IMG/VR virus record: IMGVR_UViG_3300030108_005940
Coordinates: 1-60,765 of that record
DNA length: 60,765 nt
Source: a virus
Strand: one strand, 5' to 3'
The notes under the pieces were generated by a model. That model was not told the DNA's origin, made no database searches, and saw only the letters and a program-made list of their open reading frames with translations. Positions within the stretch are counted from its first letter, which is position 1. Every line of letters begins with the position of its first letter. The position numbers were made by a program, and so were the translations under genes. Below, in pieces: positions 31,113 to 49,900 of this stretch.

Positions 31113-34022
31113 ATGGATAACATAGTAACAGGGTTTCCAAACGTCCCGCTTTCTATAACTAACCCGGCTGTTAGTGAGAGAGATGCTTTAGATAGATTTG
31201 CTCCGTATAATTTTGTTGATTTTATAAAATCTGTTTCGGAAAACTATGATCCGGATACTCTTGCAACATTTTATAATAAGTACCTTAATCGATGGAATAC
31301 AAAATCTACATCAAAGAATGAAGATCAAACAAATAGTATTATAGACTTATATAGAGATTTCCTTCAAGATATAACTATAAATTTCTCTACCTATGCTGAA
31401 AAAACATTTCTTACTCAATTAGATTTTAATAATTCTTATGATTTAGAAATTGCAATGTCTTTCTTTAGTAAGAAGATAAGAGATATTGTTACCTATTACA
31501 AAAAGAAACGTCAGTTGCTACATTACTCAGTAACAAAATCTAAAGTTAGAGGTAGTAGTTTAGGTGTAGAGCAAGCAGTTAAGGATTTTGTTTTAGAATA
31601 TCTAGAAAATCGATCAACAGCAAATATTGATTATAATATTGACATAATTAAAGAAAATATATCAGTTGGTTTAACAGAATATTTTGATAACTACGCGCAG
31701 TATTTTAATGCAGAACCAAATGCTGAAGAATATGGTAAAAACTTTATTGAGTATAATCCGGATGGTCCTCCAACATTAAACATTTTTTTAAACAACGATA
31801 CATCGTTAATTAGTGAAACTTTTTCTCGTGTAGCTACTGTCTTACAGGAATTAAAAGAGACAGATGAATTATTTGCAAATAAACGAGCTCAAACTAAAAA
31901 GTATATTGGAACAGATTTTTATTATTTAGCTACAGATGCAGAAGGTAAGCCTGAAATTGGTGTATTATTTGAAGCAGATAGACCTTATGCAAACTTCTTA
32001 AATCAAAACTACCCATCTACAGCGTCAGAGTTTTCTAATGACATTATAAGTGAACGAGATCTTGGATTCTTTAAACCTACTAATGCTGGTATAGTTGTTA
32101 TACAGGGAAAACGAATTGATTTTTTCGAGAAAGATTATTACCCAGCAAACCAACTGTATGTGTTTCCTGATCCTAATCTATATACCAATAACCAAGAAGT
32201 ATTAACTTTTACAGTTGATACATCGCGAGCTGTTAACAATAGAAGTAAAGGTATAGCAATAAATCAACCTAACGTTGATAGAGATAGTACATCTTTCTTA
32301 GGTTATAATTCTGAGATTGCTGAAGAGAGAAATTTAGATACAGACTTATCTTATTTGTACAACGATGGTTATATAGATGATAGTAAGAAAGATTTATTTG
32401 GAAATATATTTGGATTAGTAAAAGACAATAATTATTATAGAAGTAATATAATATCTGAAGATCCAGATACAATTAAAAATTTAATACTTAACGGTTATCA
32501 ATTTTATGATGATCTATTCGGTGAAGGCTATAATTTTAATTATAATACTACTGATACCGCTACATATGATGAAACAAAGAGATCCGGGCTTTCGTCTTTT
32601 ACTAATGGCTTAGTAACTCTACCAACTTCTGCCTATCATATTTTTAATAGGTATTTTAACCCATATCAAGAACTAATAGCTCCTAATAACTGGTTAGAAG
32701 TAGATTTTAAAAGACCTGAATCCTTTAAAATTGATGCTGATGTAAAAGAAGCAGCATATTTTATGTTTTCAGATACAGAAACATTAGCAGATCCAACTAG
32801 CGCTACTTCAGCTGGTGATCTATTAATATCTGGATTGAGTGCATATAAAGATAGCGCGTTACAGTTTTATTATTCTGATTTAGTGGACGCAGGAGGTGCT
32901 TTTTTAGATACATCAAAAACTAGTACTATCTTTAGAGGGTTATGTGATCCAACAAACATATGGACAACTACATTATCTGGTAGTTTTTCAGTTAATGCTC
33001 GTCTATCTGGTGACAACGGAGTTAAAAATTATGATTGCGGGTTATTTACGGATGATATAGTTTTTAACTACACGCAAGCTGAAGAAGGTTTTGATTATAG
33101 AGATGATGTATTTGATGTAACTGAATTTACTACAGTTGATACAGATACGGAAAAATTATTTAACAGAAGAGATCATACTGGTAAAATATATGTTAAAAAT
33201 ATTAACCAGGCGCCAGGTAAACCTGCAGTAAAAGAGTTAACTGATGCAATAACTTATTTTCCTAGCAAATATAATACAACAGTATGTAATCAATTATCTA
33301 CAACAGTTAAAGAGTTTGATTTATTATATACTACTCTGTTTATTGAAACGAGTACCTTCTTGGTAACTGAAAAAACTAACTATCAAGATAATGTCTTTAT
33401 TTCACCAATTACTTTTACCAACTCTTTAACTATAAATACAAGCTTCTTTGATAAAGTAAGTAACCGAGTAAAAGTTGGAAGTAATGTATTTTTCTGTAGA
33501 TTTGTACGTGATCAATTAACACTAAAAGATAATAGACTATATCCAAAAATTTATAAGTATAATTTTTCAGAGGATACAACAGAAGTTATATTTCCAACAA
33601 CCGGTAATACAGCAGCTAATTCATCTTGTTATTTTGATTTGTCTGACCCGAGTCCGTTATCAGTGTATGTAGAAAGTGGTAAACCATTTTTGACATATAG
33701 TAGTGATAATGAACTTTTTAATCTTGGTGTTATAATAAAAGATTTAAATAAAGGTCCTTTGCTTTTAAATTATCTCTTTGAGTATAAGAATGAAATTAAG
33801 TTTGTTGATACAGTTTCACATACTAGTAACAATAGTCGTTTTACTTATACATTTGCTAACAACGAGCTTAAAAATGGAAACGTTAATTTAGATAACTTAA
33901 AACTGCCACTTTCATCCCAGGTACCGACAATAACTGCAACCCATCAAATTCCAGAGTTTGCTGCAACACCAATTTTATCTTCTCTAGCACCTAAAGTTTC
34001 AGCAACCGCCTTAGTATTATGA
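31113..34022 (+). CDS. large structural protein, probably baseplate
   Basis: A 969-residue protein of unrecognised family. The first 200 residues are helical (YNFVDFIKSVSENY; RDIVTYYKKKRQLLHYSV; EQAVKDFVLEYLENRS) and similar in style to wedge proteins. The remainder is Asn/Tyr/Asp-rich beta structure typical of fibre-like virion proteins. It has its own late box. Position after gp6 and the PKD protein suggests a role similar to T4 gp7, gp8 or gp10, but there is no sequence proof. The end overlaps the next start by 4 nt (ATGA). Confidence 0.55.
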   Translation: MDNIVTGFPNVPLSITNPAVSERDALDRFAPYNFVDFIKSVSENYDPDTLATFYNKYLNRWNTKSTSKNEDQTNSIIDLYRDFLQDITINFSTYAEKTFLTQLDFNNSYDLEIAMSFFSKKIRDIVTYYKKKRQLLHYSVTKSKVRGSSLGVEQAVKDFVLEYLENRSTANIDYNIDIIKENISVGLTEYFDNYAQYFNAEPNAEEYGKNFIEYNPDGPPTLNIFLNNDTSLISETFSRVATVLQELKETDELFANKRAQTKKYIGTDFYYLATDAEGKPEIGVLFEADRPYANFLNQNYPSTASEFSNDIISERDLGFFKPTNAGIVVIQGKRIDFFEKDYYPANQLYVFPDPNLYTNNQEVLTFTVDTSRAVNNRSKGIAINQPNVDRDSTSFLGYNSEIAEERNLDTDLSYLYNDGYIDDSKKDLFGNIFGLVKDNNYYRSNIISEDPDTIKNLILNGYQFYDDLFGEGYNFNYNTTDTATYDETKRSGLSSFTNGLVTLPTSAYHIFNRYFNPYQELIAPNNWLEVDFKRPESFKIDADVKEAAYFMFSDTETLADPTSATSAGDLLISGLSAYKDSALQFYYSDLVDAGGAFLDTSKTSTIFRGLCDPTNIWTTTLSGSFSVNARLSGDNGVKNYDCGLFTDDIVFNYTQAEEGFDYRDDVFDVTEFTTVDTDTEKLFNRRDHTGKIYVKNINQAPGKPAVKELTDAITYFPSKYNTTVCNQLSTTVKEFDLLYTTLFIETSTFLVTEKTNYQDNVFISPITFTNSLTINTSFFDKVSNRVKVGSNVFFCRFVRDQLTLKDNRLYPKIYKYNFSEDTTEVIFPTTGNTAANSSCYFDLSDPSPLSVYVESGKPFLTYSSDNELFNLGVIIKDLNKGPLLLNYLFEYKNEIKFVDTVSHTSNNSRFTYTFANNELKNGNVNLDNLKLPLSSQVPTITATHQIPEFAATPILSSLAPKVSATALVL

Positions 34023-34555
34023 ACACTCTTAATTTTAACATATCTACCTCTAAACCGCAAATGAATGAAGAAGTGATTCTTGCGGAAACTAATATGTACA
34101 ACGCTACTGAGGTTACTTTAAACATATCAAATGTGTTTTCTGAAATATTTCCGAATTACTTAAGTATTGACTGGGGTGATGGAACGCCAGTGTTAGAGCC
34201 AGATATTATTATTTTTAGAGATTATAGAACTCAATCTATATATCCAGAAATAGAAAATGGTGCGGCTCCGGTAACGTTTACAAATACGTATAAACATATA
34301 TATTTTCCATCAACCTATGCATTAAAGAAAAATGTTACGTTTAAGATGAATGTTGGGTATGTAACTGGTGAAACAACACGTTTAAGTGCTACTATGGTTA
34401 TAAATTCTGAAAGCTATTATCAGAGCGTTGAAGACATGGAAATAGTAGGATTAGATTTATTAAATGATGAAACAAATACATCTAGGGTATCGCTTTTAAC
34501 ACAAAACGGCAACTATGTCGTTCAACTCGATAACAAATCTTATAGGGAGAAATAG
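34019..34555 (+). CDS. small PKD-like structural protein
   Basis: A 178-residue protein whose middle has YLSIDWGDGTPVLEPD (about 49-64) and later FTNTYKHIYFPSTYALKKNV. This is the DWGDG...H.Y pattern of PKD domains, so it probably forms one Ig-like beta sandwich. It overlaps the previous gene by 4 nt (ATGA) and is translated with it. It may be a small decoration or linker for the neighbouring baseplate proteins. Confidence 0.6.
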   Translation: MNTLNFNISTSKPQMNEEVILAETNMYNATEVTLNISNVFSEIFPNYLSIDWGDGTPVLEPDIIIFRDYRTQSIYPEIENGAAPVTFTNTYKHIYFPSTYALKKNVTFKMNVGYVTGETTRLSATMVINSESYYQSVEDMEIVGLDLLNDETNTSRVSLLTQNGNYVVQLDNKSYREK

Positions 34556-34558
34556 ATA

Positions 34559-34564
34559 TAAATA
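34559..34564 (+). promoter_or_regulatory. late promoter box TATAAATA
   Basis: TATAAATA (34557-34564) ends 6 nt before the ATG at 34571. Confidence 0.75.
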
Positions 34565-34570
34565 TACACA

Positions 34571-36961
34571 ATGGGTTGTTTAGTAAAATCAAGTTTAAGT
34601 GCTCTAAGTTCTGTTGAAGCAAGTATATGCCCAACAGATCTTACCCTTGATCAATATTCACAAACTTATAATGGTGAGTTTGTTATTAATTTTGTAAATG
34701 CACTATCTGGCATTCAAGACTTTAAAAATCTTAATTTTACAAATTTCTATCTTACAGATAATGTATTATTAGATGATATAACATCACATAAAGAAATTAA
34801 AGTAAAGCCAGAATCATATTTTACAACTCTTAATTTTACAACTTCAGCTAATAACTACCTACTATACAGGCCAGCGAGTTTATCGAGTTTTAAAAATACG
34901 AATAGAATTTATGATGCTGATTATTATGGTGTAACAACATTTACTCCTGTGTTGTCAGATGCTAGTAATTTCGAAATAACCTTTATTGATGACTTTACAT
35001 GTAGAGTTAGTACTATAAGCTCTTCAAATAATATAAGATATTATCTTGTTGTATCTGATGATGAAGAAGTAGATGGAAAACGAAATACGTTATTTGTTGG
35101 TGAAAACCAGCTACCTGAAAATGGATTTAATTTAGAATATAATCTTTTAAAATATAAAACCGATAGTTTTATTAATTTATACTCTACAAAAGAAGATATA
35201 AAATACATTCTTTTAAATAACGATGGAGTTGTAAAGGCTAATAAGATTACTACTAGCGATGGTGTTAATCAGTTTTTTATAGCAGATTCAAGTATAAAAA
35301 TAAATCAAGAGTTAAATTTATCTGTACCATCACCGTATAATGCATCATTTGTAACTTATAGTAATGATGGTAAAGTTGATAACGATAAGAGCGATTTCAA
35401 CTTACCTTCTAACTACTTGTTTTATAGCTCTAGTAATAAAGCTGGTTTAGATTTTAATTTTTATAACCTTAAAAACATTGTTAATACTCAGGAACAATTT
35501 AATTCTTCAAATAATCTTCTTTCTACTTCTAATACCACAATATATAGTCAAGATTTAAGAACATATACATCAATATTTTCTGATATAGATAGCGAGCGAA
35601 ACGAAACGCTTTCGCTTAACTTTGTATACAATAATTATGATATTTTAATCAAGCCAGGTACAACTTTCTTTACAACGCCGTCATCCATGGCCCCATTTGA
35701 CAGACTCAATATAAATGATACAAAGTTTACTAAATGTGGCTCGTTTTCATTTAAGCGACCTGATCTCTCAGATAGAGTCTACCGTTTGGATGATGATTCT
35801 GTAAAAGAAGAAAATGTTACTTACCTCTGTACCTGGTTATCAGGTGGTATAGGGCAAGAAGGTATTTGGGTAGATAGATATTATTACCCAGATTTAGTAG
35901 ATAAGGAAACTGCTTTAGCTGCATCACCAGCATATAATACAACATATAAATTAGCTGTTGAAAATCTCATTGCTTCAAATTCCACTTTAAAATCATCTAT
36001 TGAAAAGAAATTATATCTAGATAAAAAGAGTGATTTGGTTTTTGAACCTAATAAACGATATAAATATGTGAGAATTTCCGAAGATGATTTTATTAAAAAA
36101 TCACCTACAAATTTTTGTGATACAGCTCAAATAAATGGTAAGGTAAATAATTACTTTAACACTATAAATGATAATGGGGGCTTTGGCTTAGGATTTACTC
36201 TTCAAAATGATGCTGGTGATTTTTCAATTAAGTCAGGTAGTAATGATATTAACGGGGGTATTAGTTTTGAAAAATTTGACGATGAAATAACATTTAAGTT
36301 TGCATTATTTGATAATAGTACCTCAGGTGCTTCAATAGAAGAAAGATTATTACTTAATACCTTTATTCATAAATTTAAAATTGATAAGTTTGAAAAAACA
36401 AATATCTTTTTATCATTTAATGCCATTCAAGGAGTTTGTAATTTATATTTAAATTCAAATGTTATATTTACTTTTGAAGTTGGTGCATATCAATTATATA
36501 CAAAACGTATTCTTTTTGGTGATATTTTCTTACACTGGGATAGAGAAGTTGAAGAGGGAGTTATCGATAAATCAGATACAGATACTATAAACAAGAGAGA
36601 AATTTTATATAATGAGGCAACGTCACAAGATTATATATATGATGTTTATTTAGCTTTAGATCCATTAGAAAAATATCAAGAGTTAGCTGTTATATTTAGC
36701 ACGAATATTGATAGTATTCAAGATCTTACTATATCCCTACCCTGTGGAATGAGAAACTTAACAGATACTATTAATACTGTTAATTCTATTAATACAAACC
36801 TTAAGAGTAAGAGTGCAGTAGTTGATATTAACATTAAAAATTTAAATATTAATGATGATAATATTAATAATGAAGTGAGAGATATTATTAAGAGTAATAT
36901 AGTTAATTCCCTTCCAAAGTCAACCGTAATTAATAACATAAACATTGTAAACTATAAATGA
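34571..36961 (+). CDS. large virion protein, possible lectin-like domain
   Basis: A 796-residue Asn/Ser/Asp/Tyr-rich protein, family not recognised. Residues about 540-650 (GGFGLGFTLQNDAGDFSIKS, then a strand series ending GVCNLYLNSN) look like a concanavalin/LamG-type beta sandwich. The last 70 residues contain DLTISLPCGMRNLTDTIN and long Asn/Ile-rich helices. Such composition is usual for tail-fibre or baseplate-periphery proteins of AT-rich phages. It overlaps the next gene by 4 nt (ATGA). Confidence 0.5.
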   Translation: MGCLVKSSLSALSSVEASICPTDLTLDQYSQTYNGEFVINFVNALSGIQDFKNLNFTNFYLTDNVLLDDITSHKEIKVKPESYFTTLNFTTSANNYLLYRPASLSSFKNTNRIYDADYYGVTTFTPVLSDASNFEITFIDDFTCRVSTISSSNNIRYYLVVSDDEEVDGKRNTLFVGENQLPENGFNLEYNLLKYKTDSFINLYSTKEDIKYILLNNDGVVKANKITTSDGVNQFFIADSSIKINQELNLSVPSPYNASFVTYSNDGKVDNDKSDFNLPSNYLFYSSSNKAGLDFNFYNLKNIVNTQEQFNSSNNLLSTSNTTIYSQDLRTYTSIFSDIDSERNETLSLNFVYNNYDILIKPGTTFFTTPSSMAPFDRLNINDTKFTKCGSFSFKRPDLSDRVYRLDDDSVKEENVTYLCTWLSGGIGQEGIWVDRYYYPDLVDKETALAASPAYNTTYKLAVENLIASNSTLKSSIEKKLYLDKKSDLVFEPNKRYKYVRISEDDFIKKSPTNFCDTAQINGKVNNYFNTINDNGGFGLGFTLQNDAGDFSIKSGSNDINGGISFEKFDDEITFKFALFDNSTSGASIEERLLLNTFIHKFKIDKFEKTNIFLSFNAIQGVCNLYLNSNVIFTFEVGAYQLYTKRILFGDIFLHWDREVEEGVIDKSDTDTINKREILYNEATSQDYIYDVYLALDPLEKYQELAVIFSTNIDSIQDLTISLPCGMRNLTDTINTVNSINTNLKSKSAVVDINIKNLNINDDNINNEVRDIIKSNIVNSLPKSTVINNINIVNYK

Positions 36962-38841
36962 TAGATTATTTTAAATATACTACTGGAAATGCCTTTACAT
37001 TAAGCGGTGATAATTACACCGGTTTATTTAATATTACAGATGGTATAGCATACACTGGTAAGACCTTTACATCTTCCTCAAAAGTACTTAGCTCGAGTGA
37101 TACCTTTCTTTCAAATTGCTTCTTAAGAAAATTTGAATTTGATAGAACTACAACACGTGTAGACAAATCTATAATAAAACGACCTTCAGTTTCACCGAGA
37201 AATATTATTGATCAAAATTTTATCGATGCAAACTTGCAATGTTTAAATTTAAATAATTTATATTTATATTCTTTAAATATTGTTTCAAACCCTGATATAC
37301 TTGATTTTGCTAATTCAACAGCTGATGGAACTAGTTACTTTTTAGGGATGTCAAGTAGTAGTACAGATTTAAGAAATAACGATTTTTCACTCGCAAAAGA
37401 TAATACATTCCCTATTCAAATAGATCCATTTAGCACAGTTGATAATATTCCAGGATTAGAAGTATTAGATGATACGGTCGATAGTACATTATTTGTATAT
37501 GATGATGAATCATATTTTTATTTTACTACAACGCCAACAAACTCATATACTTTTTCTGGTAGCTTTGTGCACAATGGAGGTCTTACTAGATTAGTAGATG
37601 ACCCGTTTCAAGGTAACAGTAAGTTTACATATGATAATAATACAGATGTATTATATAGCTTAGCGGGTGAAGTTTTAAGTTTATACGATAACAGCTTTAT
37701 TAACCCTTGTCGAGTTTTTAAGCTTGTAGATCAAATTACATTACCTGAAATACCCATCGATGACGTAGTAGAAATAGGAAATAATTTGCTAGGTTATCGA
37801 TTTATTAGTGATTCCGGAATTAGTATCAATATACGTGATAAGTATTCTTTAACTCATATATCAAATATAAGTGTTATGATACCTCAAGAGGAAATTTTAG
37901 CTTTTGATATAAGAGATAGTGATGATAGTATTTTAATAATAACGCAACCACCTATTGACCCTGATACGGAAGATTTTTTCACGTATAATATGTATCACGT
38001 TGATTCTGAACTTTTAGGCGGTAGTGATGATGATCTAGTTTTATCTAATCCAAAAACTATAAACAGATATAAACCTTTTTATGATTTTAACGTTAAAGAA
38101 GAAATACGTGTTTATTTTTCCGGGAGTGATTCTAATATTTTTACATTAAACGACGAAGGTTCAATTACAACGAGATTTATTTCTAATCCAGCTGAAGTTG
38201 CGGGTGTACCGTCTATTGATAATTTATTATATCTTAAAGATATGTATTTTGATGACACACAAGAGCGATTTAATTTAATAGAAAAGAAATTTAACTCTAA
38301 CTTATTAAAATCAAACTACTTTAATAATATTAATTTAATTCTTACAAAAAATAGTTCTAATTTATTTTACCTATTACATAATATAGGTAGAATATATCTA
38401 TTTAAAGATTCAAGTTTAGAATATAAAAATTATATTCCTTTAGATTTACCTAATTTATACGAAAAAATAATTAGTTGTGAGTCTAGTTTAGGTATTTCAA
38501 TAAACAGCGAACTTCAAAATATTATTAAAGATACAGTCAGTATATATTTAAATGCGAGTATAATACCTATTAAAGAATTAATAAGTGGTATACCGCTGTT
38601 AAGTAAATTCGTATCATACGAGGGCATGGATGTTAATTTTAGAGATTTTGAATTTCACGAAAATGAAGAAGTAACATATGACGCTGTTTCAAGAGTTTTT
38701 AATGCAATTTATGATCTTCAAGTGGCAATAATTAACACAATTACAGCTGGAGAAAATATTGATAATATTGCTGTTGGTGATAATGATGTAGCTATTAGTA
38801 GTAATAATGTAAATAATATAACCCCTTCAAATACATACTAA
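36958..38841 (+). CDS. large virion protein of unknown function
   Basis: A 627-residue protein, mostly beta in character up to about residue 440, with repeated short strands ending in Phe/Tyr (for example ESYFYFTTTPTNSYTFSGSF). A helical C-terminal domain contains YEKIISCESSLGISINSELQ and VFNAIYDLQVAIINTITAGE. The family is not recognised. It is translated together with the previous gene (ATGA overlap) and lies before the four collar fibres, so an adaptor between baseplate and fibres is possible. Confidence 0.5.
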   Translation: MIDYFKYTTGNAFTLSGDNYTGLFNITDGIAYTGKTFTSSSKVLSSSDTFLSNCFLRKFEFDRTTTRVDKSIIKRPSVSPRNIIDQNFIDANLQCLNLNNLYLYSLNIVSNPDILDFANSTADGTSYFLGMSSSSTDLRNNDFSLAKDNTFPIQIDPFSTVDNIPGLEVLDDTVDSTLFVYDDESYFYFTTTPTNSYTFSGSFVHNGGLTRLVDDPFQGNSKFTYDNNTDVLYSLAGEVLSLYDNSFINPCRVFKLVDQITLPEIPIDDVVEIGNNLLGYRFISDSGISINIRDKYSLTHISNISVMIPQEEILAFDIRDSDDSILIITQPPIDPDTEDFFTYNMYHVDSELLGGSDDDLVLSNPKTINRYKPFYDFNVKEEIRVYFSGSDSNIFTLNDEGSITTRFISNPAEVAGVPSIDNLLYLKDMYFDDTQERFNLIEKKFNSNLLKSNYFNNINLILTKNSSNLFYLLHNIGRIYLFKDSSLEYKNYIPLDLPNLYEKIISCESSLGISINSELQNIIKDTVSIYLNASIIPIKELISGIPLLSKFVSYEGMDVNFRDFEFHENEEVTYDAVSRVFNAIYDLQVAIINTITAGENIDNIAVGDNDVAISSNNVNNITPSNTY

Positions 38842-38848
38842 TAAAATT

Positions 38849-41236
38849 ATGAATTCACCTGTAACACCTGAAAATGTTGGAGAAAGTCTCGAAAGACTGC
38901 GTATAGCAGATTATTATACATCCTTATTACATGTAAGTGGAGCTGATCTTTCTGTTTTACCTAAAAATGATGTATATACTGGTGGTGGTAAAATTACAGG
39001 ATTAGCATTAAGCGCTGTTGGTGATAGTGTTATAATAAATCGATATATTGAACCTAAGGGATTTAATTATGTTACAGAATGGTTAGATGCTTTTTATCCT
39101 ATAAACAGTATATTATTAACTGTTACAAACGATAATCCGGGTAATCGGATTGCTGGTACAAAATGGGCTTTAGAGAGTAATGGTGATTTTTTAGCTGGTG
39201 TAGGTACGGGGTTAGATAATAATGACCCATCATTTGTTTATACTTTCTCTCCAGGCTCAAGTGGTACAGAATCTGGGGATATTGCTGGTGAATATTGTGT
39301 TAAATTAAATACAGATACTTTACCTATACATACACATGATGTAAACCCACAAACATTAACTATAGGTAGATTTAATACTGAAAAAACATTCTGCTTTTAT
39401 TTTGGTGACACAGTAAATCCTCAAGGATTAGTAGAACAAAAAATTTGGGACCCTGGTATAAATTTAGTAACAGTAGGACCTAATAGAGGGAGAGCTTTTA
39501 CTGCTTCCGGACGATCATATTCTTATTTCTTAGAACAAGATAGAATACAAGCTTTTCAAAATAATACTACATACAATGGTCAAGTTAATTACAGAACTCA
39601 TTTAATACGTGAAAGACATGCTAATGGTTATAGGTATACTGATTCGGATTTTAATCCGAAATTAGCTAATTTTTCATTATCAGGGTGGGGTGGTAGCGTT
39701 ACTGGTGGGCCCGGGTGGGGTGGATTAATGGTATCTCAAGGTCAAGGTGATTCACGATTTGGAACAAATATTTGGATATCTAATGGTTTTAAACCAGTAG
39801 GAGTTCCTTGGGGAAGTGGCAATGAAGTACCTATACTCTACCCTCCAGGTTATTCTGATTTAGATGATGAAAACACATTAGCTGGATATACGGGCATTGC
39901 TGCAGTTGGATATGATCCAAGAGATCAAGATAGAGTGCACCCGGGTATATTTACACCACAAGATCTCGTAAGAGCAAGAAATATTATTGTTGAAGCGTTA
40001 GGTGAAGAAGAAGCTGCAATTGCTTTACAGGGTGTAAATCGATTAAGAGAGATTAACGCAGTAGTAGATGAAGGTACATATAATAATTTAACTACTGAAG
40101 AACAGATACCCGGGACAGGGATTAGACAGACAAGAACAGCTGGTGACTCGTTGTGTCATAATAATATATTACCTAATTATGGTGTATATGTATGGCGTAG
40201 AGTACCGTTAGATTATACAATTGTAGAACCTCCTACTGATACAACTGTTGTTGTACCACCGCCTATAGATACAAGGATGTGGCGTGCTACAATAACTACT
40301 AATAAAAAAGAACTTAATTTAAATCAATGGGCATTAGATCGTGGTTGGGATGGTCAACAACCTGCTACAATAACTATTAATAACAACGTCTATATATATT
40401 CTGATAATATACAAACCCCTGCTTTAGAAATTAATAATTGGTCTAACGGGTTAACACTAATTAATAATGGCTACATAATGGGTAGAGGAGGAGACGGAGG
40501 TTCATACGGTGCTACAAAACAAAAAGAACAGCCTTCACCTCCTGGAGGTAATTACTGGGATGGTTGGAACGGTGGTGATGCGATCAATATTACATCAACA
40601 TCGAGGATAGTTATACAAAATAATAACGGTGCTATTGCTGGTGGAGGCGGTGGTGGTGCTGGAAGCGGTACCGGTAACTTTGGAGGCGGTGGAGGCGGCG
40701 CAGGTGGTGGTAACGGCGGTATGGGTGCTAAAGAACGTGAAGGTATATTTGAAAGAGGAGGAGCAGGTGGAGATATAGGTGAAAGTGGTAGTGATGGAGG
40801 AAATTGGTTAAATAGATCTGGAAATATTAGCTTAGGTCGCTTACGTCGTAATTTTAATTTACAAGGTAGAGGAGGACAAGCTGGTGGTGGTGGTTCTGGA
40901 GGATTTCAAGCTGCAGGTAATGATCCACACGGTGGCGGTGGAGGCGGTGGTAGAATATTAACAAATACTGCGGCAGGGGGTGATGGAGGTGAAGCAGGAG
41001 GCGCTAATGGTGGTTCTGTAAATAACGAAGGTCAATCAGCCTCTTCTAGTGAAGGTAGTAGGTGGGGTAATGCTGCTGGTGGAGGTGGATGGGGTGCTGA
41101 TGGTGGTGATTGCTCTAGAGCACGGGTTAGTCCCAGAACAACACCAAAAGGCGGTAAAGGAGGAAATGCTATTAATTCCGCGGAAGGGTCTAACTATTTA
41201 ATAACTGGGGGAATTGTTTACGGAAAGAGAGACTAG
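38849..41236 (+). CDS. tail-collar fibre fused to a gp38-type Gly-rich adhesin
   Basis: A 795-residue protein. Residues 1-450 form a tail-collar fibre: EWLDAFYPINSILLTVTNDNPG (77-98), NRIAGTKWAL, then LPIHTHDVNP (159-168), ending with HNNILPNYGVYVWRR (437-451). After a Pro/Thr linker, residues about 477-795 differ: MWRATITTNKKELNLNQWA, then NGYIMGRGGDGG and many runs such as GGGGGGAG. This order of a strand-forming head and Gly-rich motifs is that of gp38 adhesins of T2/S16-like phages, whose Gly-rich segments pack as polyglycine II helices and bind the host receptor. The next gene is the same fibre without the adhesin. Confidence 0.7.
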   Translation: MNSPVTPENVGESLERLRIADYYTSLLHVSGADLSVLPKNDVYTGGGKITGLALSAVGDSVIINRYIEPKGFNYVTEWLDAFYPINSILLTVTNDNPGNRIAGTKWALESNGDFLAGVGTGLDNNDPSFVYTFSPGSSGTESGDIAGEYCVKLNTDTLPIHTHDVNPQTLTIGRFNTEKTFCFYFGDTVNPQGLVEQKIWDPGINLVTVGPNRGRAFTASGRSYSYFLEQDRIQAFQNNTTYNGQVNYRTHLIRERHANGYRYTDSDFNPKLANFSLSGWGGSVTGGPGWGGLMVSQGQGDSRFGTNIWISNGFKPVGVPWGSGNEVPILYPPGYSDLDDENTLAGYTGIAAVGYDPRDQDRVHPGIFTPQDLVRARNIIVEALGEEEAAIALQGVNRLREINAVVDEGTYNNLTTEEQIPGTGIRQTRTAGDSLCHNNILPNYGVYVWRRVPLDYTIVEPPTDTTVVVPPPIDTRMWRATITTNKKELNLNQWALDRGWDGQQPATITINNNVYIYSDNIQTPALEINNWSNGLTLINNGYIMGRGGDGGSYGATKQKEQPSPPGGNYWDGWNGGDAINITSTSRIVIQNNNGAIAGGGGGGAGSGTGNFGGGGGGAGGGNGGMGAKEREGIFERGGAGGDIGESGSDGGNWLNRSGNISLGRLRRNFNLQGRGGQAGGGGSGGFQAAGNDPHGGGGGGGRILTNTAAGGDGGEAGGANGGSVNNEGQSASSSEGSRWGNAAGGGGWGADGGDCSRARVSPRTTPKGGKGGNAINSAEGSNYLITGGIVYGKRD

Positions 41237-41262
41237 TTAGATAGTATTTCTAGATTATGACA

Positions 41263-41268
41263 TAAATA
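41263..41268 (+). promoter_or_regulatory. late promoter box TAAATA
   Basis: TAAATA 5 nt before the ATG at 41274. Confidence 0.7.
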
Positions 41269-41273
41269 ATAGT

Positions 41274-42422
41274 ATGCCCGAGAGCTTAGAAAATCAATTT
41301 ATTTCTGATTTATATACTTCTCTACTACATTTAAGTGGAGCAGATTTAGGTTCTAATGGTCCTATTAATAAGGTATTTGATGGTGCTGGTAATACTACAG
41401 GTTTAGCATTAAGCGGAAGAAGAGTTTTAATTAATAATTATATATACCCTGAAGGATTTCAAACACGGTCACCACTCGAGTGGTTAGATTCATTTTTTCC
41501 AATTGGAAGCTTACAATTAACCTTTGATGATAACAACCCAACAGATAGAATCGCGGGTACTGTTTGGACACAAGTATCACAAGGAAGGTTTTTAGTAGGT
41601 ACGGGCTTAAATACAGATAAAAATGGTGTAGAGCGTGAATTTTGTCCGGGAGGTGCTGAGGAAGAAGAAGCTGGGAGTAGAGGTGGGTCGGGTGATACAG
41701 CTGGTGAATATCGAGTCACGCTTACAGAGGATCAATTACCAGCTCATACACATGATGTTAATATCGGTGCAGCTGACGTTCAAATATCTAACCCTGCAGG
41801 TACTGGATCTACTTCACAGGTAAATCCTGTAGGTACAATAAACTCGTCATTAACTTTTAGAGAGCAAGAGAATGCAAGATATAGATTATTAAGAGATGTA
41901 TCACCACCGGGTGATGAAGATTATTTCAGATTAGCAAATTGGGAAGATTCACAAGAAAATTGGCCGGAGAGAGCGTGGTTATATGCGTTAGATTTTGGAT
42001 TTGATAGGGGATCAGCAGCTAATTATTCACAAGCAGATAGAGAGTTGTACATGATCGGTGCATTAGCAGATACATACCAATTTAAAGAGTTAATAGGTAT
42101 TTGGAACGGTGAATCTAGATTTGTTTCTGATATAAATGTACGTGTTGATGTTGGTGTAGGACGTGGTGGTAGAATTCTTCGTACTGTAAAAACTCCATAC
42201 GAATATGCAAAAGAATTAGGAGCTGTTGATATAGGTTCAGCAACAGCTGGTAATTATCTAACAAATAACAATGAAACACCTATTATATCTGGTAACACTG
42301 AAGTACTAGAGAGACAAGAACAATCAAATAATACAAGAATTTCAACATCTACAGGAGAAGATGGTTCACATAATAACATATTACCATCATATGGCGTATA
42401 CGTATGGAAGAGAATAGCATAA
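41274..42422 (+). CDS. tail-collar fibre protein, short paralogue
   Basis: A 382-residue paralogue of the first 450 residues of the preceding gene. Shared landmarks are YTSLLHLSGADL (14-25), LEWLDSFFPIGSLQLTFDDN, DRIAGTVWTQVSQGRFLVGT, LPAHTHDVN and the end HNNILPSYGVYVWKR. It stops at the point where the longer copy continues into the Gly-rich adhesin. The pair probably arose by tandem duplication. The collar domain trimerises and its His-x-His segment (HTH) may bind metal. It is expressed from its own late box. Confidence 0.75.
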   Translation: MPESLENQFISDLYTSLLHLSGADLGSNGPINKVFDGAGNTTGLALSGRRVLINNYIYPEGFQTRSPLEWLDSFFPIGSLQLTFDDNNPTDRIAGTVWTQVSQGRFLVGTGLNTDKNGVEREFCPGGAEEEEAGSRGGSGDTAGEYRVTLTEDQLPAHTHDVNIGAADVQISNPAGTGSTSQVNPVGTINSSLTFREQENARYRLLRDVSPPGDEDYFRLANWEDSQENWPERAWLYALDFGFDRGSAANYSQADRELYMIGALADTYQFKELIGIWNGESRFVSDINVRVDVGVGRGGRILRTVKTPYEYAKELGAVDIGSATAGNYLTNNNETPIISGNTEVLERQEQSNNTRISTSTGEDGSHNNILPSYGVYVWKRIA

Positions 42423-42432
42423 TAAATTAATC

Positions 42433-43956
42433 ATGGCAAATATAACTATAGTAAAATTAAAGGTAAGGAGGGGATCAGATGCTCAACGAAAATCTATTGT
42501 TTTAGATCAAGGTGAAGTTGGTTATACGCTCGATACTAAGCGATTATTTGTTGGTGATGGTGCTACTTTAGGTGGTAACTCAGTAGGTAATAAAAATATT
42601 GGACCGTTTGCAGCAGATTCAAGTTTAGGCCCTGATTCAGCGCCAGGTATGGAAGTAGGTGACATTGGTTATGCTAATAGCCTTCTATATATATTAACAT
42701 CAACCAATTATAATGATACACTCTCGGGTTACGGTTATATCGGACCAGTTGCAGACGATACATTAATAGAGTTTGATACTGATAATAAGTTAACAGTTAA
42801 AAAAGAAGGATTTGATGCGCAGTATTTAAAGCCAGAATTTTTTGGAAGTGGTTTATTATCAAGTGCCGGGGGAATTGCTTCTGTTAATATTAACTCTACA
42901 TATTTTGAATTATCTAATTCTAAAATTTCACCAGTAGTTAATTCGATTACTGAAAGAGAAATTGCTACATCAACACTTTCTTCTGGGTTAGTAGGGGGAA
43001 ATGATGCTAAAATACGTCTTAGTGTTAATCCAACACAATTTGAATTCGATGACGAAAATCGATTGCAGTTAAAGTCATTGGGTACTAGTACTATTCCAGT
43101 CTCTAGTTGGGCGGGGCAAAACGGTGCTAATCTACTTAATAGTGGTTTATCAATTAATGGTACAACTGGTAAAATACAAGCAAACTTACGTACAGTTAAT
43201 CCAACAACATTTTCTTTAGATTCGAACGGGCAAGTATCGTTATTTGGCGCTACTTCATCACAGCAAGAACTGCCTTATATTACAACTACAGATGGATTAG
43301 TTAAAACTATTCAATCTTCTATATATGATGTAATAACTGCAACCAGTTTATCCGGCGGTGCACAAGATAGTATACCAATTGGTAGTATTTTACCACATGC
43401 TCGAGCTTTTAATACTATTCCAGCTGGTTATCTATTATGTGATGGTAATGCTTATGACTCTACAAATACGGAATATGCTGAATTATATGGTGTTATAGGA
43501 GATAATTGGAATACAGCAGGTGATATGACAGATCCTGGTGGTGATTTATTTAGAGTACCAAACTTATCTGGTGGTGATGTATTATTATACGGAAATAATG
43601 AGGCAGCTCCAGGTTCAAATGTATTATATTTATCCGGTGCTAATACTCCACTCGGTAATAAGGATTTTCCTGGCGCTTCAACAAGTGGTAGCTTGAGCGC
43701 AGTTGGTGTAAACTTTATTATTAAATATAAAAAGGATTCTATAAAGAGTATATTTAACGGGGCACCTAATCAAAAAACAGTTGGTTATGGGCGAAGTGTA
43801 TATGATCAACAAATTTATGAAGGTATAGATTCAACTGGACAAAATATCCAACTAAGTTCAGCAGGATTTATTGCTTTTGCACTATCTGGCGATGTAAGAA
43901 ATACAACTAGTGATGAAGTATTTGACAGATTTGCAATTCCAGTATATGGTTGGTAA
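42433..43956 (+). CDS. tail-collar fibre protein, second family, copy 1
   Basis: A 507-residue fibre. Its N-terminus IVKLKVRRGSDAQRKSIVLD, followed by GEVGYTLDTKRLFVGDGAT (about 5-44), is the short head-fibre/tail-fibre motif found at the start of many phage fibres. A repeated beta shaft follows. The collar domain IPIGSILPHARAFNTIPAGY LLCDGN lies near residues 315-340, with LFRVPNLSGG after it. The distal 90 residues are unique. No late box stands at 5-6 nt (TAAATT only), so it is perhaps read from the promoter at 41263. Confidence 0.75.
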   Translation: MANITIVKLKVRRGSDAQRKSIVLDQGEVGYTLDTKRLFVGDGATLGGNSVGNKNIGPFAADSSLGPDSAPGMEVGDIGYANSLLYILTSTNYNDTLSGYGYIGPVADDTLIEFDTDNKLTVKKEGFDAQYLKPEFFGSGLLSSAGGIASVNINSTYFELSNSKISPVVNSITEREIATSTLSSGLVGGNDAKIRLSVNPTQFEFDDENRLQLKSLGTSTIPVSSWAGQNGANLLNSGLSINGTTGKIQANLRTVNPTTFSLDSNGQVSLFGATSSQQELPYITTTDGLVKTIQSSIYDVITATSLSGGAQDSIPIGSILPHARAFNTIPAGYLLCDGNAYDSTNTEYAELYGVIGDNWNTAGDMTDPGGDLFRVPNLSGGDVLLYGNNEAAPGSNVLYLSGANTPLGNKDFPGASTSGSLSAVGVNFIIKYKKDSIKSIFNGAPNQKTVGYGRSVYDQQIYEGIDSTGQNIQLSSAGFIAFALSGDVRNTTSDEVFDRFAIPVYGW

Positions 43957-43957
43957 T

Positions 43958-43963
43958 TAAATA
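43958..43963 (+). promoter_or_regulatory. late-type box TAAATA at longer distance
   Basis: TAAATA 9 nt before the ATG at 43973, outside the 5-6 nt rule. It may give a short leader or be non-functional. Confidence 0.4.
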
Positions 43964-43972
43964 TTAAAAACA

Positions 43973-45646
43973 ATGGCTATAGAAATTCTAGAAAACACTC
44001 TTTTAAAGCTCCTAGTAAGGAGAGGTACTGATTCTGATAGAAAACTGATTACATTAGAGAGTGGAGAACTTGGTTTTACTACTGATACTGAAAGACTATA
44101 TATTGGTAATAGTACAACCCCTGGAGGAATACTTGCTGGTAACAAATATAAAGGTAGAGCTAATGTAGTAACTTCATTAAGCCCAGTAGTAACGGGAGAT
44201 TATGCGTATGAAACAGATACTAATAGCTTAAAAATTTGTATAGCTGGTACAGGTTCAGCTGCTAGTGACTGGTTAACTGTTGCTAACCAGATTAGTGCAG
44301 GTGATACTACTATAGTAATTGATAGTCAAAATAGAATAACTGTTGGTACGTTATCTGCAGGTGATTTTTCAGCTGATACATTAGGGAGTTCTATTGAATT
44401 AGACGGTAGTAGTAGAATAGCTCTTAGTAGTACAATTAATATTGATAATATTACTCAAAGAACAACTAGTGCTACAAATTATCTTTCGTTACCTTCAAAA
44501 TTAAAAATAAGTGAAGTTGATTATGATTTTCCAGCAACTGGACCTACTAACAATACCTTTTTAGGATCTAATGGACAGGGTGAATTAAGATGGTCAGTAC
44601 CAAGTATAATAGAATCAACTGTAGCCCCAACAACAGCTTCACTACTTCCGGTTGCAACTATTGTACCTTTTGCTTCTGCTGCAGCAGAAGTACCTTATGG
44701 TTGGTTAAGTTGTGATGGTGCAGAGTATATAAGTAGTTCTTATCCGGAATTATGCGCAGCAATAGGGACAGGTTATAATACGGCTGGTACAACAGCAGAT
44801 CATTTTAGGGTACCTAATTTAAACAATGTAATTACATATGGAGCAGCTAACCCTGCAGCTACCACTTTAGTTGGTGTAACAACTGGAGCAGCTACTACTT
44901 TAGGCTCAGGATTATCAGCAACAGGAATGCATTTCATGATTAAAGCAATAGGTGGTGTAACTAATCCTACTCTTACTGTTCAGAAAAATCTTTCTGCTTT
45001 TATAAACTCTGTTGATTATACCGGTACTAATTTTAACCCTTTAAGTGGTAATATCGTTATTGAGAGTCCTCCACCGGGGCAAATAGTTTTTGATAATGGC
45101 AGAGATACCAATACATTTACTATGCCGCCCGGAATACATTACGTAAAGTTTTACGTTACAGGTGCCGGTTCAAAAGGAGGTACAACGCCCGGCGGTGCAG
45201 CTGCTACTTGTGTTGGTCATCTATCTGCTAAACCAGGATATGTGTTTAAAATAAAATCTGCAGCTGGAGCTACTATAGCTGATGCCCCAGCAGATGGTGA
45301 TTTTTCTGCTATATATACTGATGACGGTGGTACTACTTTAGTCCGCGCAGATGGTGGACTATATGAAGGTACAGAACCTGGCAAAGTTAGTGACCGTGGT
45401 CAAGTAGCTAAAGGAACTGCAGGTGGCGTGGTTTTAACAACTAACCAATTTGTTTTAAATGGTTATGTCATAAAAGGTGGTTCTGGTTTAGTAGATACAG
45501 ATGGAGGTAAAGGTAAGGAAGAATCATTAGGTGCTTCTTCATACTTTGGTAATGCACCAGCTCCCGGGGGTGGTCAAGCTTCGCATTCTGGCGCAGCACT
45601 CGGACCTCCTCCAAGTAATGGAATAGTAATGATTGAATGGTCATAG
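43973..45646 (+). CDS. tail-collar fibre protein, second family, copy 2 with Gly-rich tip
   Basis: A 557-residue paralogue of the previous gene: LLKLLVRRGTDSDRKLITLE and GELGFTTDTERLYIGNS at the N-terminus, collar IVPFASAAAEVPYGWLSCDG near residues 228-247, and FRVPNLNNV. The C-terminal 190 residues form a new domain, with IVFDNGRDTNTFTMPPGIHY, a strand VKFYVTGAGSKGG and a long Gly/Ala/Asp-rich end. It is a likely receptor-binding tip. As with the pair at 38849/41274, one of two tandem paralogues carries an extra Gly-rich tip. Confidence 0.72.
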   Translation: MAIEILENTLLKLLVRRGTDSDRKLITLESGELGFTTDTERLYIGNSTTPGGILAGNKYKGRANVVTSLSPVVTGDYAYETDTNSLKICIAGTGSAASDWLTVANQISAGDTTIVIDSQNRITVGTLSAGDFSADTLGSSIELDGSSRIALSSTINIDNITQRTTSATNYLSLPSKLKISEVDYDFPATGPTNNTFLGSNGQGELRWSVPSIIESTVAPTTASLLPVATIVPFASAAAEVPYGWLSCDGAEYISSSYPELCAAIGTGYNTAGTTADHFRVPNLNNVITYGAANPAATTLVGVTTGAATTLGSGLSATGMHFMIKAIGGVTNPTLTVQKNLSAFINSVDYTGTNFNPLSGNIVIESPPPGQIVFDNGRDTNTFTMPPGIHYVKFYVTGAGSKGGTTPGGAAATCVGHLSAKPGYVFKIKSAAGATIADAPADGDFSAIYTDDGGTTLVRADGGLYEGTEPGKVSDRGQVAKGTAGGVVLTTNQFVLNGYVIKGGSGLVDTDGGKGKEESLGASSYFGNAPAPGGGQASHSGAALGPPPSNGIVMIEWS

Positions 45647-45678
45647 TTGCTTTTATATCCTTTATATATAACTAAAAT

Positions 45679-45843
45679 ATGGATGAAGTTATTGTTGAAG
45701 GTTTAGATTATGAAGATTTTGTATCCTTAAAGTCAATTTTGACTGAATGTACGTTATTTAATGCAGAGCAAGGTAAACAATTATCCGAAAATACTGTACT
45801 TATACAGAAGATAGAAAAGATTTTACAGGTATTTGAAGAATAA
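45679..45843 (+). CDS. very small acidic helical protein
   Basis: A 54-residue frame from ATG 45679 to TAA 45843. It opens MDEVIVEGLDYEDFVSLKSI and closes with VLIQKIEKILQVFEE, suggesting one or two amphipathic helices, possibly a coiled coil. It fills the gap between the fibre gene and the next small gene, and its stop codon is part of that gene's late box. No ribosome site is seen. The function is unknown. Confidence 0.5.
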   Translation: MDEVIVEGLDYEDFVSLKSILTECTLFNAEQGKQLSENTVLIQKIEKILQVFEE

Positions 45844-45846
45844 ATA
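45841..45846 (+). promoter_or_regulatory. late promoter box TAAATA overlapping a stop codon
   Basis: Its TAA is the stop of the 54-residue frame. The ATG at 45852 follows after 5 nt. Confidence 0.7.
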
Positions 45847-45851
45847 CTTGT

Positions 45852-46064
45852 ATGAATGCAAGTTGCTGCAGGGCTAGTGCGCTGTGTGAAGAGTTTTCGG
45901 ATTATGTAATATATGACGATAGCTGCGATAGTGTTCTCGTTAACGTCCATGAAGATTATTTCTCTATAGTTTATAGGGAATTACAAAAAATGAGTTACAT
46001 ACTTGTATTTAAAACATATCTTAAAGCAACAAATTCTTTGACCTGTACTTTTATAAAGGAATGA
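45852..46064 (+). CDS. small Cys-rich protein of unknown function
   Basis: A 70-residue protein starting NASCCRASALCEEFSDYVIY and containing six Cys in all. The rest is mixed, with HEDYFSIVYRELQKMSYILV in the middle. The CC-x6-C start might bind a metal or form disulfides. The late box 5 nt upstream supports that this is a true gene. I do not recognise it. Confidence 0.55.
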   Translation: MNASCCRASALCEEFSDYVIYDDSCDSVLVNVHEDYFSIVYRELQKMSYILVFKTYLKATNSLTCTFIKE

Positions 46065-46069
46065 GTAAT

Positions 46070-46075
46070 TAAATA
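46070..46075 (+). promoter_or_regulatory. late-type box TAAATA at longer distance
   Basis: TAAATA 8 nt before the ATG at 46084, slightly outside the common 5-6 nt spacing. Confidence 0.45.
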
Positions 46076-46083
46076 TATAATAG

Positions 46084-46947
46084 ATGGCCTTTCCTACAGA
46101 TATAAGATTACCCACCGGTTCAAGATACTATACATTAATTGCGACAAAAAAAACATTTAATTCGAATTATGATATAGTTTGGTCGTTTGAATATAAGTTA
46201 CCTGGATCAGCAATTTCAGCTCCATTTAATACTTACCAAGTTGGGTTTACAACTTTTTTAACTAATTTAATTTCACCGATATCAAGCCTGCCTGGGCAGT
46301 ATCTTGGGGACCAAGATCCGGAGTTTATTTTATCAGCCCATGCTCTAGAGACTGAAGATTCATTAATATTAAAAACCCAAGAAGATTCAACACTTCTTCT
46401 AGAAGGTGGTATTTTAAGTGGTACGTTAGTCAAAGTTGCTTTTGATTCTACGGGGTTATATGCATTAACTGGTAGAGATGATAGACCTGGTGTTAATGAT
46501 AAACAAACTCATAGAAATGCCTTGGTAGTTAGAGATTATGTGCATAATCTTAAAGGTAATGCACCACTATCTACGTTTTCAAGTTCATTTACTAATTTGT
46601 CTACAGATACATACAGAACTTTAAGATTTAGATATGTAAATCTAGGTGAAAAATTACATATAGATTATAGAGAAGCTGATACAACGACATACACGTTATT
46701 AACTACTATAGAATTAGGCTATAGATCAATAAGATTACAAAATTTAGAAAATATATATTGTGGATTTGCTTTTAGTACCCCGATTTCTTCAGCTACTGAT
46801 ACTGTGAGTGCAAATGCATTTTATTTACGTAATTTTAACATAGAAGGTTATGAAGGAGCTGATGTAACAACAGAAACAGTAATTACTCCAAGTTTATCAG
46901 TAAATCCAAATGCTTCGTATACAACCGTTACAAATATAACAGCATAA
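46084..46947 (+). CDS. beta-sandwich, lectin-like structural protein
   Basis: A 287-residue protein, nearly all beta strands. Segments such as NYDIVWSFEYKLPGS, LSGTLVKVAFDSTGLYAL, and YRTLRFRYVNLGEKLHIDY followed by YCGFAFST suggest a concanavalin A-like jelly roll, as in lectins and sugar-binding fibre domains. The end (SVNPNASYTTVTNITA) is a Thr/Asn-rich tail similar in style to the linkers of the next protein. It lies 1 nt before the giant Thr-rich fibre gene, with coupled translation, so the two products may work together. This is inference from fold-like pattern. Confidence 0.5.
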   Translation: MAFPTDIRLPTGSRYYTLIATKKTFNSNYDIVWSFEYKLPGSAISAPFNTYQVGFTTFLTNLISPISSLPGQYLGDQDPEFILSAHALETEDSLILKTQEDSTLLLEGGILSGTLVKVAFDSTGLYALTGRDDRPGVNDKQTHRNALVVRDYVHNLKGNAPLSTFSSSFTNLSTDTYRTLRFRYVNLGEKLHIDYREADTTTYTLLTTIELGYRSIRLQNLENIYCGFAFSTPISSATDTVSANAFYLRNFNIEGYEGADVTTETVITPSLSVNPNASYTTVTNITA

Positions 46948-46948
46948 A

Positions 46949-49900
46949 ATGGCAACGACACCCACACCAACCACGCTTAGACCATCACCGGTTTTTAGGT
47001 TTCAGACGGATGAGCGATTTCAAAATCAATACGGTAATCCGTTTGCTAGTTGGTTTGATTCTTCTAGAAACGAGCCGCCGGGTGTAATACCTACCACTAT
47101 CCCACCAACAACTACACAATCACCGGCTATTAGCTTTAGTGATGTAAGGGTATCTAATATTAATACGTCTGCAATAAACCCTGTTCCAGGAGACGGTGGG
47201 GTAGAAAATTCATATGAAAATGCAACAGGAACTATAACAGTTGAAAGTATAGAGCTTGATCGACCTTTTTCAGAGAAAGTTGAATATGTAATTTATGATG
47301 TAAATGGTAGTAAAGATCAATATGGTGACCCAGAAAATTTTATTTCTGGGGAAGCTGGTGTTGTTGTTAATGATGAAAATAAATCTATAGTACAAATAAA
47401 TGATGAAATAACAGCTATTGCAGATCCGACCAATGAAACTGGGAGCATGAGTGTTGTTGTACAGTTAAGAGATGAAAATTATACAACTTTAACCACAATA
47501 CAAACAGAATCTAACCCAGTATTAATAACTACAACTACTACAACTACTACAACAACCCGTGCACCTGTAATTACTACTACAACAACGACACCGAGTCCAA
47601 CTACATTACCACCCGTTCCTAGAGTAGGTGATGATGATGCAGGTGAAGTTGGAGATACAAATTATATACCGATAACAACTACTACTACAACTACGCGTAT
47701 ACCTGTTTTAAGACCGACAACAACTACAACAACACGTCCACTAATATCTGTAGATGTTGATTCAATAGTAGGAATTGCCACACCAGAACCAACAACAACA
47801 CCTATACCACCACCTTTTGTTGATATAGGAGCTCGACAGCCTGATCCTGTAACATCTACAACTACACGTTCACCAATATATGTAGATGTTGATTCAGTAG
47901 TAAAGATACCACGTTTTACTACAACAACACGTCCATTAATATCTGTAGACGTTGATTCAGTAGTAGGGATTGCTTCTACACGTCCCCCAGTATATGTAGA
48001 TGTTGATTCAGTAGTAGGAATTGCTACTACACGTCCATTAATATCTGTAGACGTTGATTCAGTAGTAGGGATTGCTACTACACGTCCATTAATATCTGTA
48101 GATGTTGATTCAGTAGTAGGGATTGCTACTACAACTACACAACGACCTACTACAACACGAGCTCCTGTTTTACTTACTACTACCACTACCACTACCACAA
48201 CTACACAACGGCCTACTACAACACGAGCACCAGAAGTTACAACTACCACACCAGAACCAACAACAACACCTATACCAAGTTTACGACCACCTTTTGTTGA
48301 TATAGGAGCTCGACAGCCTGATCCTGTAACAATTGCACCAGAAGATAATATTACTGCTACTACAGAAGAGGAATATTTAGGTATAATAGAGGACGAGCCT
48401 TCATTTATTGAAGAAGAAATAGATCCTGGTGAATCACCGTCAATAATTGAAGAAATTCGGGAGGCTGGTGATTTAACAGCTGCACAAGTTACTAACCAAG
48501 AAGATTTAATACGCGCGTTAGAATTTTATTCACAAATAGAAATTGTTGATAGCTTTCAATTAACGCAAACAGTTATTGTACCAGATAATACTGTAATTAC
48601 AGGTTATCTTAATCCCATAATAAGTACAAATACAACTGCATTTTGGGTACAAGGAAGTAATGTCACACTTCAAGGATTTACTATTCAAAAGCTTTTTGGT
48701 CAGGAGACAGGTAGAGGTGTTCTTGTAAATCATCCTTCTTTTAGTACCGGTGAACCTCCTTCAAATATTACAATAAATGCAATAACGTTTCTTGGTGTGG
48801 GTACATCCGGAAGAGATAAATTTGGCGCTATTGCTGTACTTGGTTACAACCGTCTTGGTCTAGCAACTATAAAAAATGTTAAGATAACTAATAATGTTAT
48901 TGATGCAACACCTAATACCGCAATTGACGTTTGGGAGGTAGAAGATCTAGAAATTACTAATAACGTAGTTACAAATACCCAATCAGGAGGAAAAGATAAT
49001 TTTGGAAACGGTATTAGAGGTGATAATATACGTAATACGACAATCTCAGATAATACTTTTACAAATACCGGTCGTATGGGAATAGAGGTGTTAGGAGGTG
49101 GTGCAGGTGGTGTCCCTGATGGCGCGAGGGTATCAAGTTTATATATTCTTAATAATGTAATAGAGCAGTTTGCAGTAAGTAATACCCGGGGATTTAGAGC
49201 AGGTATATCAGTATCTCAGGGAGTCAACGGTGCTTTTGTTGATGGTAATTTTGTTAATGGTGCAAACAATACATGGAATGCAGGTTTGGAGATTGCTCAA
49301 AACTCAAAAAATATTCGATTTTCAAATAATACAGTAAGAGATGTTAAAGATGGTTTATTATGTACAGCGCATTGTGATACGCTCTTTATAACAGATAATG
49401 AGTTTGTTGAAATAAAAAGATATGGTATGCAGCTCTTTCAAAACTGGAATGCAACTATAACAAACAACAATATACTACAATCAGAAGCTTGGAGGGATAC
49501 TTTTTATTCAAATGCCCGGAGTGAAAGCTTTAGAAGAACAAATGGTATTGGATGTGGTATTTTTATACAACAATGTAACGGAATTAAGGTACTAAGCAAT
49601 ATTATAGAAGGTGTATATGAACAAAAGTATGATGATGCAGCCATCATGTTTCAAAGTAACTACCCGACATTAGAGCAAGCTAATAAACTATATTACCCAT
49701 CATCATCCAGTGGAATCGAGCTTCAGCGAGAAATGGTTAAATACGGTTTAGGGGTGGAAAGTTATTGGAATACATTCTACGGTGAACCAAACGTATTAGC
49801 AAATACAAAACCTATACAAAACATTGCAGGTGGTAATACTCTTATTTCCCAAGTTAGCCCCGATCGTTCTAATCCTTTAATTCCTTATGGTGAAAGTCTA

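Follow-up and report, generated by a model that had tools for sequence, protein, structure and literature searches.

A putative baseplate fibre with a gp38-type adhesin domain in the same chain, encoded by an uncultured T4-related virus

The fused gene and its unfused neighbour

The stretch of DNA analysed here (the window) comprises bases 1-60765 of the 154,604-base IMG/VR virus record IMGVR_UViG_3300030108_005940. The presence of sheath, tube, terminase, gp25-type and gp6-type wedge genes assigns the source, by gene content, to the contractile-tailed, T4-related viruses, of which it is an uncultured member. Two adjacent genes located 3' of the gp25- and gp6-type wedge genes, a position that supports a baseplate role, are the subject of this work. 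The product of the first (the fused protein) joins a gp10-type fibre frame to a predicted gp38-type adhesin domain, while the second (the unfused protein) has the frame without the adhesin tip. The open reading frames (ORFs) are on the same strand with 37 bases between them, and comprise the following features.

38849..41236, + strand: fused fibre-adhesin gene, an ORF of 795 amino acids (aa), with Gp10_C at residues 79-169 and GP38 at residues 498-640
38849..39349, + strand: N-terminal segment and Gp10_C module, residues 1-167, paralogous to residues 3-163 of the neighbour
39350..40156, + strand: middle part, residues 168-436 (~270 residues), from the HTH motif to the closing strand, with no family match
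40157..40207, + strand: closing HNNILPNYGVYVWRRVP segment, residues 437-453, delimited by BLASTP between the two proteins
40208..40282, + strand: proline/threonine-rich linker, residues 454-478, with zero invariant columns
40283..40483, + strand: beta-helix part of the gp38-type domain, residues 479-545, from the predicted model
40484..41173, + strand: glycine-rich lattice and variable loops, residues 546-775, from invariant Gly columns and a Z of 19.4 to 6f45_D
41174..41233, + strand: last beta-helix strands, residues 776-795 (model strands E302-304, E309-313 and E316-318)
41274..42422, + strand: unfused gp10-type paralogue, 382 aa, from a Gp10_C match (1.8e-17) above cut-off

Relatives were collected by scans of viral contigs. 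The profile of the unfused protein gave 38 loci, among them L051, which it matched through the fused gene, and the fused protein added a further contig, L030. Locus L029 was dropped (28% identity, other neighbourhood), and L031-L035 correspond to the contigs of L003, L012, L009, L005 and L002. The alignments (A1-A4) hold 21 sequences, namely the window and 20 of the 39 contigs; L019, L021 and L026 (identical to kept rows) and L022 (near-identical) were left out, and L016, L023-L025, L030 and L042-L051 are likewise outside them.

Pfam detects Gp10_C in the fused protein with an E value of 3e-11 (44.8 bits against a cut-off of 27) and, at E<=0.01, in 21/21 members of the fused family; the domain is also present in all 21 members of the unfused family. 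Profiles of the two fibre frames find the T4 gp10 structure (2fkk) at E 0.002 (fused) and E 2e-4 (unfused), and in a weak second stretch of the fused-frame comparison the closing HNN-P-YG-Y-W segment aligns with the extreme end of T4 gp10. The initial annotation had named the fibre part a collar fibre. This identity was rejected, as both proteins carry Gp10_C and neither carries the Pfam Collar domain (PF07484), which is found in the next two genes, 42433-43956 and 43973-45646.

The similarity between the two proteins is far above chance by sequence comparison. BLASTP aligns residues 12-166 of the fused protein with 3-163 of the unfused one (53% identity, 2e-40) and residues 412-452 with 341-381 (44% identity, 5e-08), and the shared module closes in both with HNNILP-[NS]-YGVYVW (residues 437-449 and 366-378), which bears out the common NNILP-Y-GVYVW end noticed earlier. 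In a profile-profile comparison (A3 vs A2) only the first 158 columns align (E 1.2e-64), and the middle parts between the BLASTP stretches (~245 residues in the fused and 177 in the unfused protein) are not aligned by either method. The paralogy of the unfused protein is therefore with the fibre frame of the fused protein and does not extend to all of residues 1-450; the correspondence with the whole of the second protein that had been claimed holds for the first 163 and last 41 residues of the unfused protein and fails for the middle. Beyond residue 453 the fused protein runs on for 342 residues, with the GRGGDGG and GGGGGG blocks that were described initially.

Fold of the C-terminal domain

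Pfam GP38 (PF05268) matches the fused protein with 28.7 bits against a cut-off of 25 and is found at E<=0.01 in 20 of the 21 fused family members, and in 0/21 members of the unfused family. In a composition control, the 78 residues ending at the first glycine motif match GP38 on their own (E 0.0089), while a 71-residue piece without this motif and the 251-residue glycine part alone give no GP38 match; the signal thus requires the boundary between the beta-helix and the first glycine motif.

A model of residues 474-795, predicted from an alignment with 20 relatives, has a mean predicted local distance difference test score (pLDDT) of 84.4 and a predicted template modelling score (pTM) of 0.85. 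A Foldseek search of the PDB with this model returns, at E<=0.001, PP01 gp38 (9v85, two chains, 9.8e-9) and S16 gp38 (6f45_D, 7.4e-6) and nothing else. VIA-align superposes the model on S16 gp38 (6f45_D) with a Z of 19.4, over 201/248 residues at 2.5 A and 31% identity, and on PP01 gp38 (9v85_A) with a Z of 18.2; the next-best structures are unrelated beta-helix enzymes with a Z of 7.7 or less. Comparison with S16 gp38, which the initial annotation had named as a check, thus yielded a match and not a fold unlike gp38. As to the N-terminal three-helix bundle, bearing tryptophans, through which gp38 docks on gp37, the first 26 residues of S16 gp38 are unmatched by the model, which has only one helix before the first glycine motif, and the region preceding it was poorly modelled in a full-length run. 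On the basis of the predicted model, the C-terminal ~320 residues of the fused protein have the gp38 fold. The earlier proposal that an adhesin and a fibre module are joined in one chain agrees with the finding, by Pfam, modelling, Foldseek and VIA-align, of the gp38-fold domain and Gp10_C within a single ORF.

Several observations weigh against reading the gene as a gp10-type fibre with a gp38-type tip: (i) a sequence profile searched against the PDB finds S16 gp38 only at E 0.36, below unrelated glycine linkers; (ii) in Foldseek the TM scores, at 0.42-0.47 by query, are modest and the root mean square deviation is large; (iii) a six-frame search of the whole record leaves GP38 under the cut-off, with 15.5 bits; (iv) only 78 residues precede Gp10_C in the fused protein, far fewer than in T4 gp10; and (v) the full-length model has a pLDDT of 50, with low confidence in the middle part, and the N-half gave no usable model. 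Because of (v), we assign no fold to the N-half and put forward its trimerisation and docking by analogy.

Distribution, variation and exchange

Both genes are complete and adjacent, with the fused gene first, in 34/39 viral contigs; these pairs include identical or near-identical contigs and do not represent 34 independent events. In L016, L023 and L046 the available DNA begins inside the fused gene, the end of which is followed by the unfused gene, and in L030 and L051 it ends inside the fused gene. Not one of the 39 contigs has one gene without the other where its DNA covers both places. In a tree of 39 rows (21 fused and 18 unfused, with identical rows merged and the unfused rows of L015, L020, L021, L022, L026 and L028 absent), the fused and unfused N-modules form two separate groups with branch support of 100/99. 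A single split of the copies, older than the divergence of the sampled viruses (to about 45% identity), follows from this; the tree has no outgroup, and gain and loss of the tip are indistinguishable in it. Mean column identity is 71% for the unfused protein and 52% for the fused N-half.

A duplication that left a tipless copy as a relic, as had been suggested, does not fit these data: the tipless gene is present in every contig that covers its place, is the better conserved of the two and has an unrelated middle part. A recent duplication was rejected, since the split in the tree precedes the sampled viruses and the unfused copy is more conserved. Judging from the sequences, the arrangement is old and fixed and not a fresh accident, and the unfused paralogue most likely serves as a structural component in its own right, either a fibre or a part of the baseplate.

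The deposited phages are distant. The nearest terminase is less than 40% identical among the matches listed (phiM9, 38.7%), and all 2611 terminase-matching records of the phage collection are below 60% identity, so that no close isolate was found in it. The whole fused and unfused proteins have no match in this collection, either in a near search or in a protein search, and a search of genome contigs for relatives found none and thus gave no host hint.

Within residues 546-775 of the 21 sequences, 56 of the 82 Gly columns are invariant, against 12 of the 148 other columns. By this alignment the glycine motifs are fixed and the loops variable, and the loop variation among relatives that the initial annotation anticipated sits in the non-glycine columns. 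The domain is also exchanged. The relatives are mosaics. L010 follows L006 up to residue 645 (406 vs 42 informative sites) and then L011 (131 vs 22), and at residue 478, where the linker ends, L006 switches from L010 to L014. Neither break was equalled in strength by any of 2000 shuffles (0/2000); six triplets were tested, picked post hoc, and the breakpoints stand as specific cases. The breaks imply that, despite the covalent fusion, the adhesin was swapped whole at the fusion junction and partly within the lattice. In 14 genomes, the Spearman correlation with the unfused protein is 0.87 for the fused N-module and 0.84-0.93 for the adhesin parts. A looser inheritance of the adhesin overall thus finds no support in these genomes, and since all parts of the fused protein track the unfused one, exchange is local among relatives. 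Fixed glycine motifs, varying loops and recombinational swaps together make it very probable, at the sequence level, that the adhesin is a host-range module.

Proposed function and relation to known systems

We propose that 38849-41236 probably encodes a short baseplate fibre, the C-terminal 320 residues of which are a gp38-type receptor-binding domain. The N-terminal gp10-type part would dock on the baseplate and trimerise like T4 gp10, the linker would present the adhesin at the free end of the fibre, and the loops of the glycine lattice would bind a host surface receptor. S16 gp38 is described as docking on the gp37 trimer through an N-terminal helical bundle, followed by a five-ringed beta-helix and a glycine lattice of ten motifs with distal loops tied to host range (PMC6851490); in PP01 gp38, loops D and E were reported to be crosslinked to OmpC, and loops of the same kind to bind it (PMC12892980). 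Covalent fusion may stand in for the non-covalent helical-bundle attachment of gp38 to gp37. If it replaces a docked cap, each homotrimer would display three tips instead of one.

Alternatively, the fused and unfused chains could co-assemble in a mixed trimer with an adhesin on one (or two) of its chains and tipless chains making up the rest, which would restore the one-tip-per-trimer geometry of gp37-gp38. We consider this unlikely. The N-terminal 160 residues and the closing strand are common to both proteins, the 34 complete pairs are invariably adjacent and the fused N-module is inherited congruently with the unfused protein (the correlation of 0.87 above). However, the unalignable middle parts make co-assembly harder, the two N-module clades are separate with no sign of exchange, and the adhesin parts correlate with the unfused protein equally well, from which the congruence is plain co-inheritance. 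It is just as doubtful that, through such a mixed trimer, the virus sets the number of tips per baseplate fibre by the ratio of two adjacent genes, in an asymmetric fibre that would retain the one-tip geometry of gp37-gp38 through fusion and duplication and not through a docked cap.

It is somewhat less probable still that the glycine domain, with its gp38 fold, acts structurally as a cap or assists folding, recognition being left to fibres encoded downstream, either the Mtd_N/Collar pair or the 1490-aa protein with a beta-helix. Several further fibre-like genes do lie directly downstream (42433-51421), and most of the fused protein is variable, not the loops alone (its middle part is 41-53% identical to relatives); against this, the variation within the lattice is concentrated in non-glycine columns and recombination has exchanged the lattice, which is the known signature of gp38 specificity. 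That the glycine region is low-complexity sequence, gp38-like in composition only, is very improbable: unrelated glycine linkers outrank gp38 in the PDB profile search, but the GP38 signal is carried by the pre-glycine part, the model reaches a Z of 19.4 to S16 gp38 and the spacing is invariant across the 21 sequences, and glycine composition as a full explanation was rejected.

The proposed baseplate fibre resembles several known systems in part. With the T-even gp38 proteins (S16 6F45, PP01 9V85, PF05268) it shares a beta-helix with a glycine lattice, variable loops, fixed cores and mosaic exchange; it differs in that gp38 is, as described for S16, a separate monomer on the gp37 trimer (PMC6851490), whereas here a longer domain is the C-terminal part of a gp10-type chain. 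Neither gp37_C nor S74 domains were found in the virus record, which may be a fragment. T4 gp10 (2FKK, PF21939), a trimer of the baseplate wedge to which gp11 and gp12 are attached, shares Gp10_C with both window proteins, as well as the location after gp25-/gp6-type genes. T4 gp10 is reported to have ~400 residues before its C-terminal domain, the solved fragment being 397-602 (PMC3004832), whereas 78 (fused) and 70 (unfused) residues precede Gp10_C here, the extended N-terminal region with its gp9-like and other domains is absent, and both window proteins also have a large middle part, one of them the adhesin as well. In a search of 10 records, Gp10_C matched only that of the window and G001 (the record of L003, same clade).

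One-chain fibres with a glycine adhesin are already known. Gp24 of Pseudoalteromonas phage BS5 (NC_031917; phrog_11439) has a gp38-type domain inside one 869-aa tail fibre chain but lacks Gp10_C, and belongs to a small phage with another fibre type. Gp24 of the freshwater cyanophage Pam3 forms a short, baseplate-docked trimeric fibre, and every chain carries a glycine lattice with a variable tip; as far as the account in PMC9608196 goes, it differs by a TNF-like scaffold in place of the beta-helix, a helical shaft in place of the gp10-type module and a separate chaperone. The same domain, by profile A1 or Pfam GP38, occurs in the gp38-like adhesins of the Pootjesviridae (phiM9, RL38J1) and of Sphaerotilus phage R1, but as separate proteins (381, 381 and 258 aa), without Gp10_C in phiM9 and RL38J1; that of R1 lies directly 3' of a T7-type fibre. 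Weak separate-protein matches in Manatee Spring podovirus (277 aa, annotated as gp38; E 0.9) and Rhizobium phage RHEph16 (352 aa; E 0.3) give no Pfam GP38 match. The glycine-rich adhesins of haloarchaeal hafunaviruses, described as host-range determinants with variable segments between glycine motifs (PMC8651126), are in that description encoded by a separate gene, unlike the fused domain here. A scan of viral contigs with profile A1 gave at least 3 loci, many of its matches being on glycine patterns; one small contig of another phage type (L039:309-2756) carries a tandem pair of gp38-like adhesins, neither of them fused, of 387 and 362 aa and with a common N-terminus. Long proteins of BFVD (756, 1147, 719 and 866 aa) have a fold match somewhere along their length; profile A1 has no match in the P-SSM2 record, the source of the 1147-aa protein. 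No gp10-gp38 fusion was found in the open-access library searched, as judged from titles and the beginnings of abstracts. To these the present case adds the gp10-type partner, the gp38-type beta-helix joined to it and the fixed tipless sister.

Other genes of the window are also of note. The two Collar-bearing ORFs, 42433-43956 and 43973-45646, are a tandem pair of related fibres, both with Mtd_N and Collar, of which only the second ends in a glycine-rich extension, so that the fused/unfused pattern is repeated next door. The 1490-aa fibre-like protein (46949-51421) has a right-handed beta-helix (Pfam Beta_helix, 2.2e-10) between long Thr/Pro-rich linkers, and its C-terminus has about three repeats of the kind G-x-x-x-P-x-A-x-NF-x-P ... 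DDGSC. Directly after this Thr-rich fibre lie two adjacent genes with a glycosyltransferase family 2 signal (51435-52265 and 52262-52999; 1.3e-9, the second just below cut-off), which might glycosylate its Thr-rich linkers. Upstream, an 819-aa protein (3132-5591) without Pfam or PHROG match consists nearly entirely of short GGG-N-containing repeats reminiscent of trimeric adhesin head repeats; a 721-aa protein after the gp6-type gene (28932-31097) has a PKD domain near its start (2.9e-8); and four proteins (969, 178, 796 and 627 aa; 31113-38841) with no PHROG match lie between the gp6-type region and the fibres, their order being kept in several relatives.

The proposed fibre would place the receptor-binding fold of T-even gp38 in an uncultured T4-like group, carried not by a long tail fibre but by a gp10-type fibre of the baseplate. 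The adhesin is still a unit of exchange, one breakpoint lying at the fusion junction, which makes residues 474-795 a probable host-range marker that is readable from metagenomes. The arrangement also poses a question of stoichiometry, namely whether a fibre would carry three tips or would be a mixed trimer with the tipless copy.

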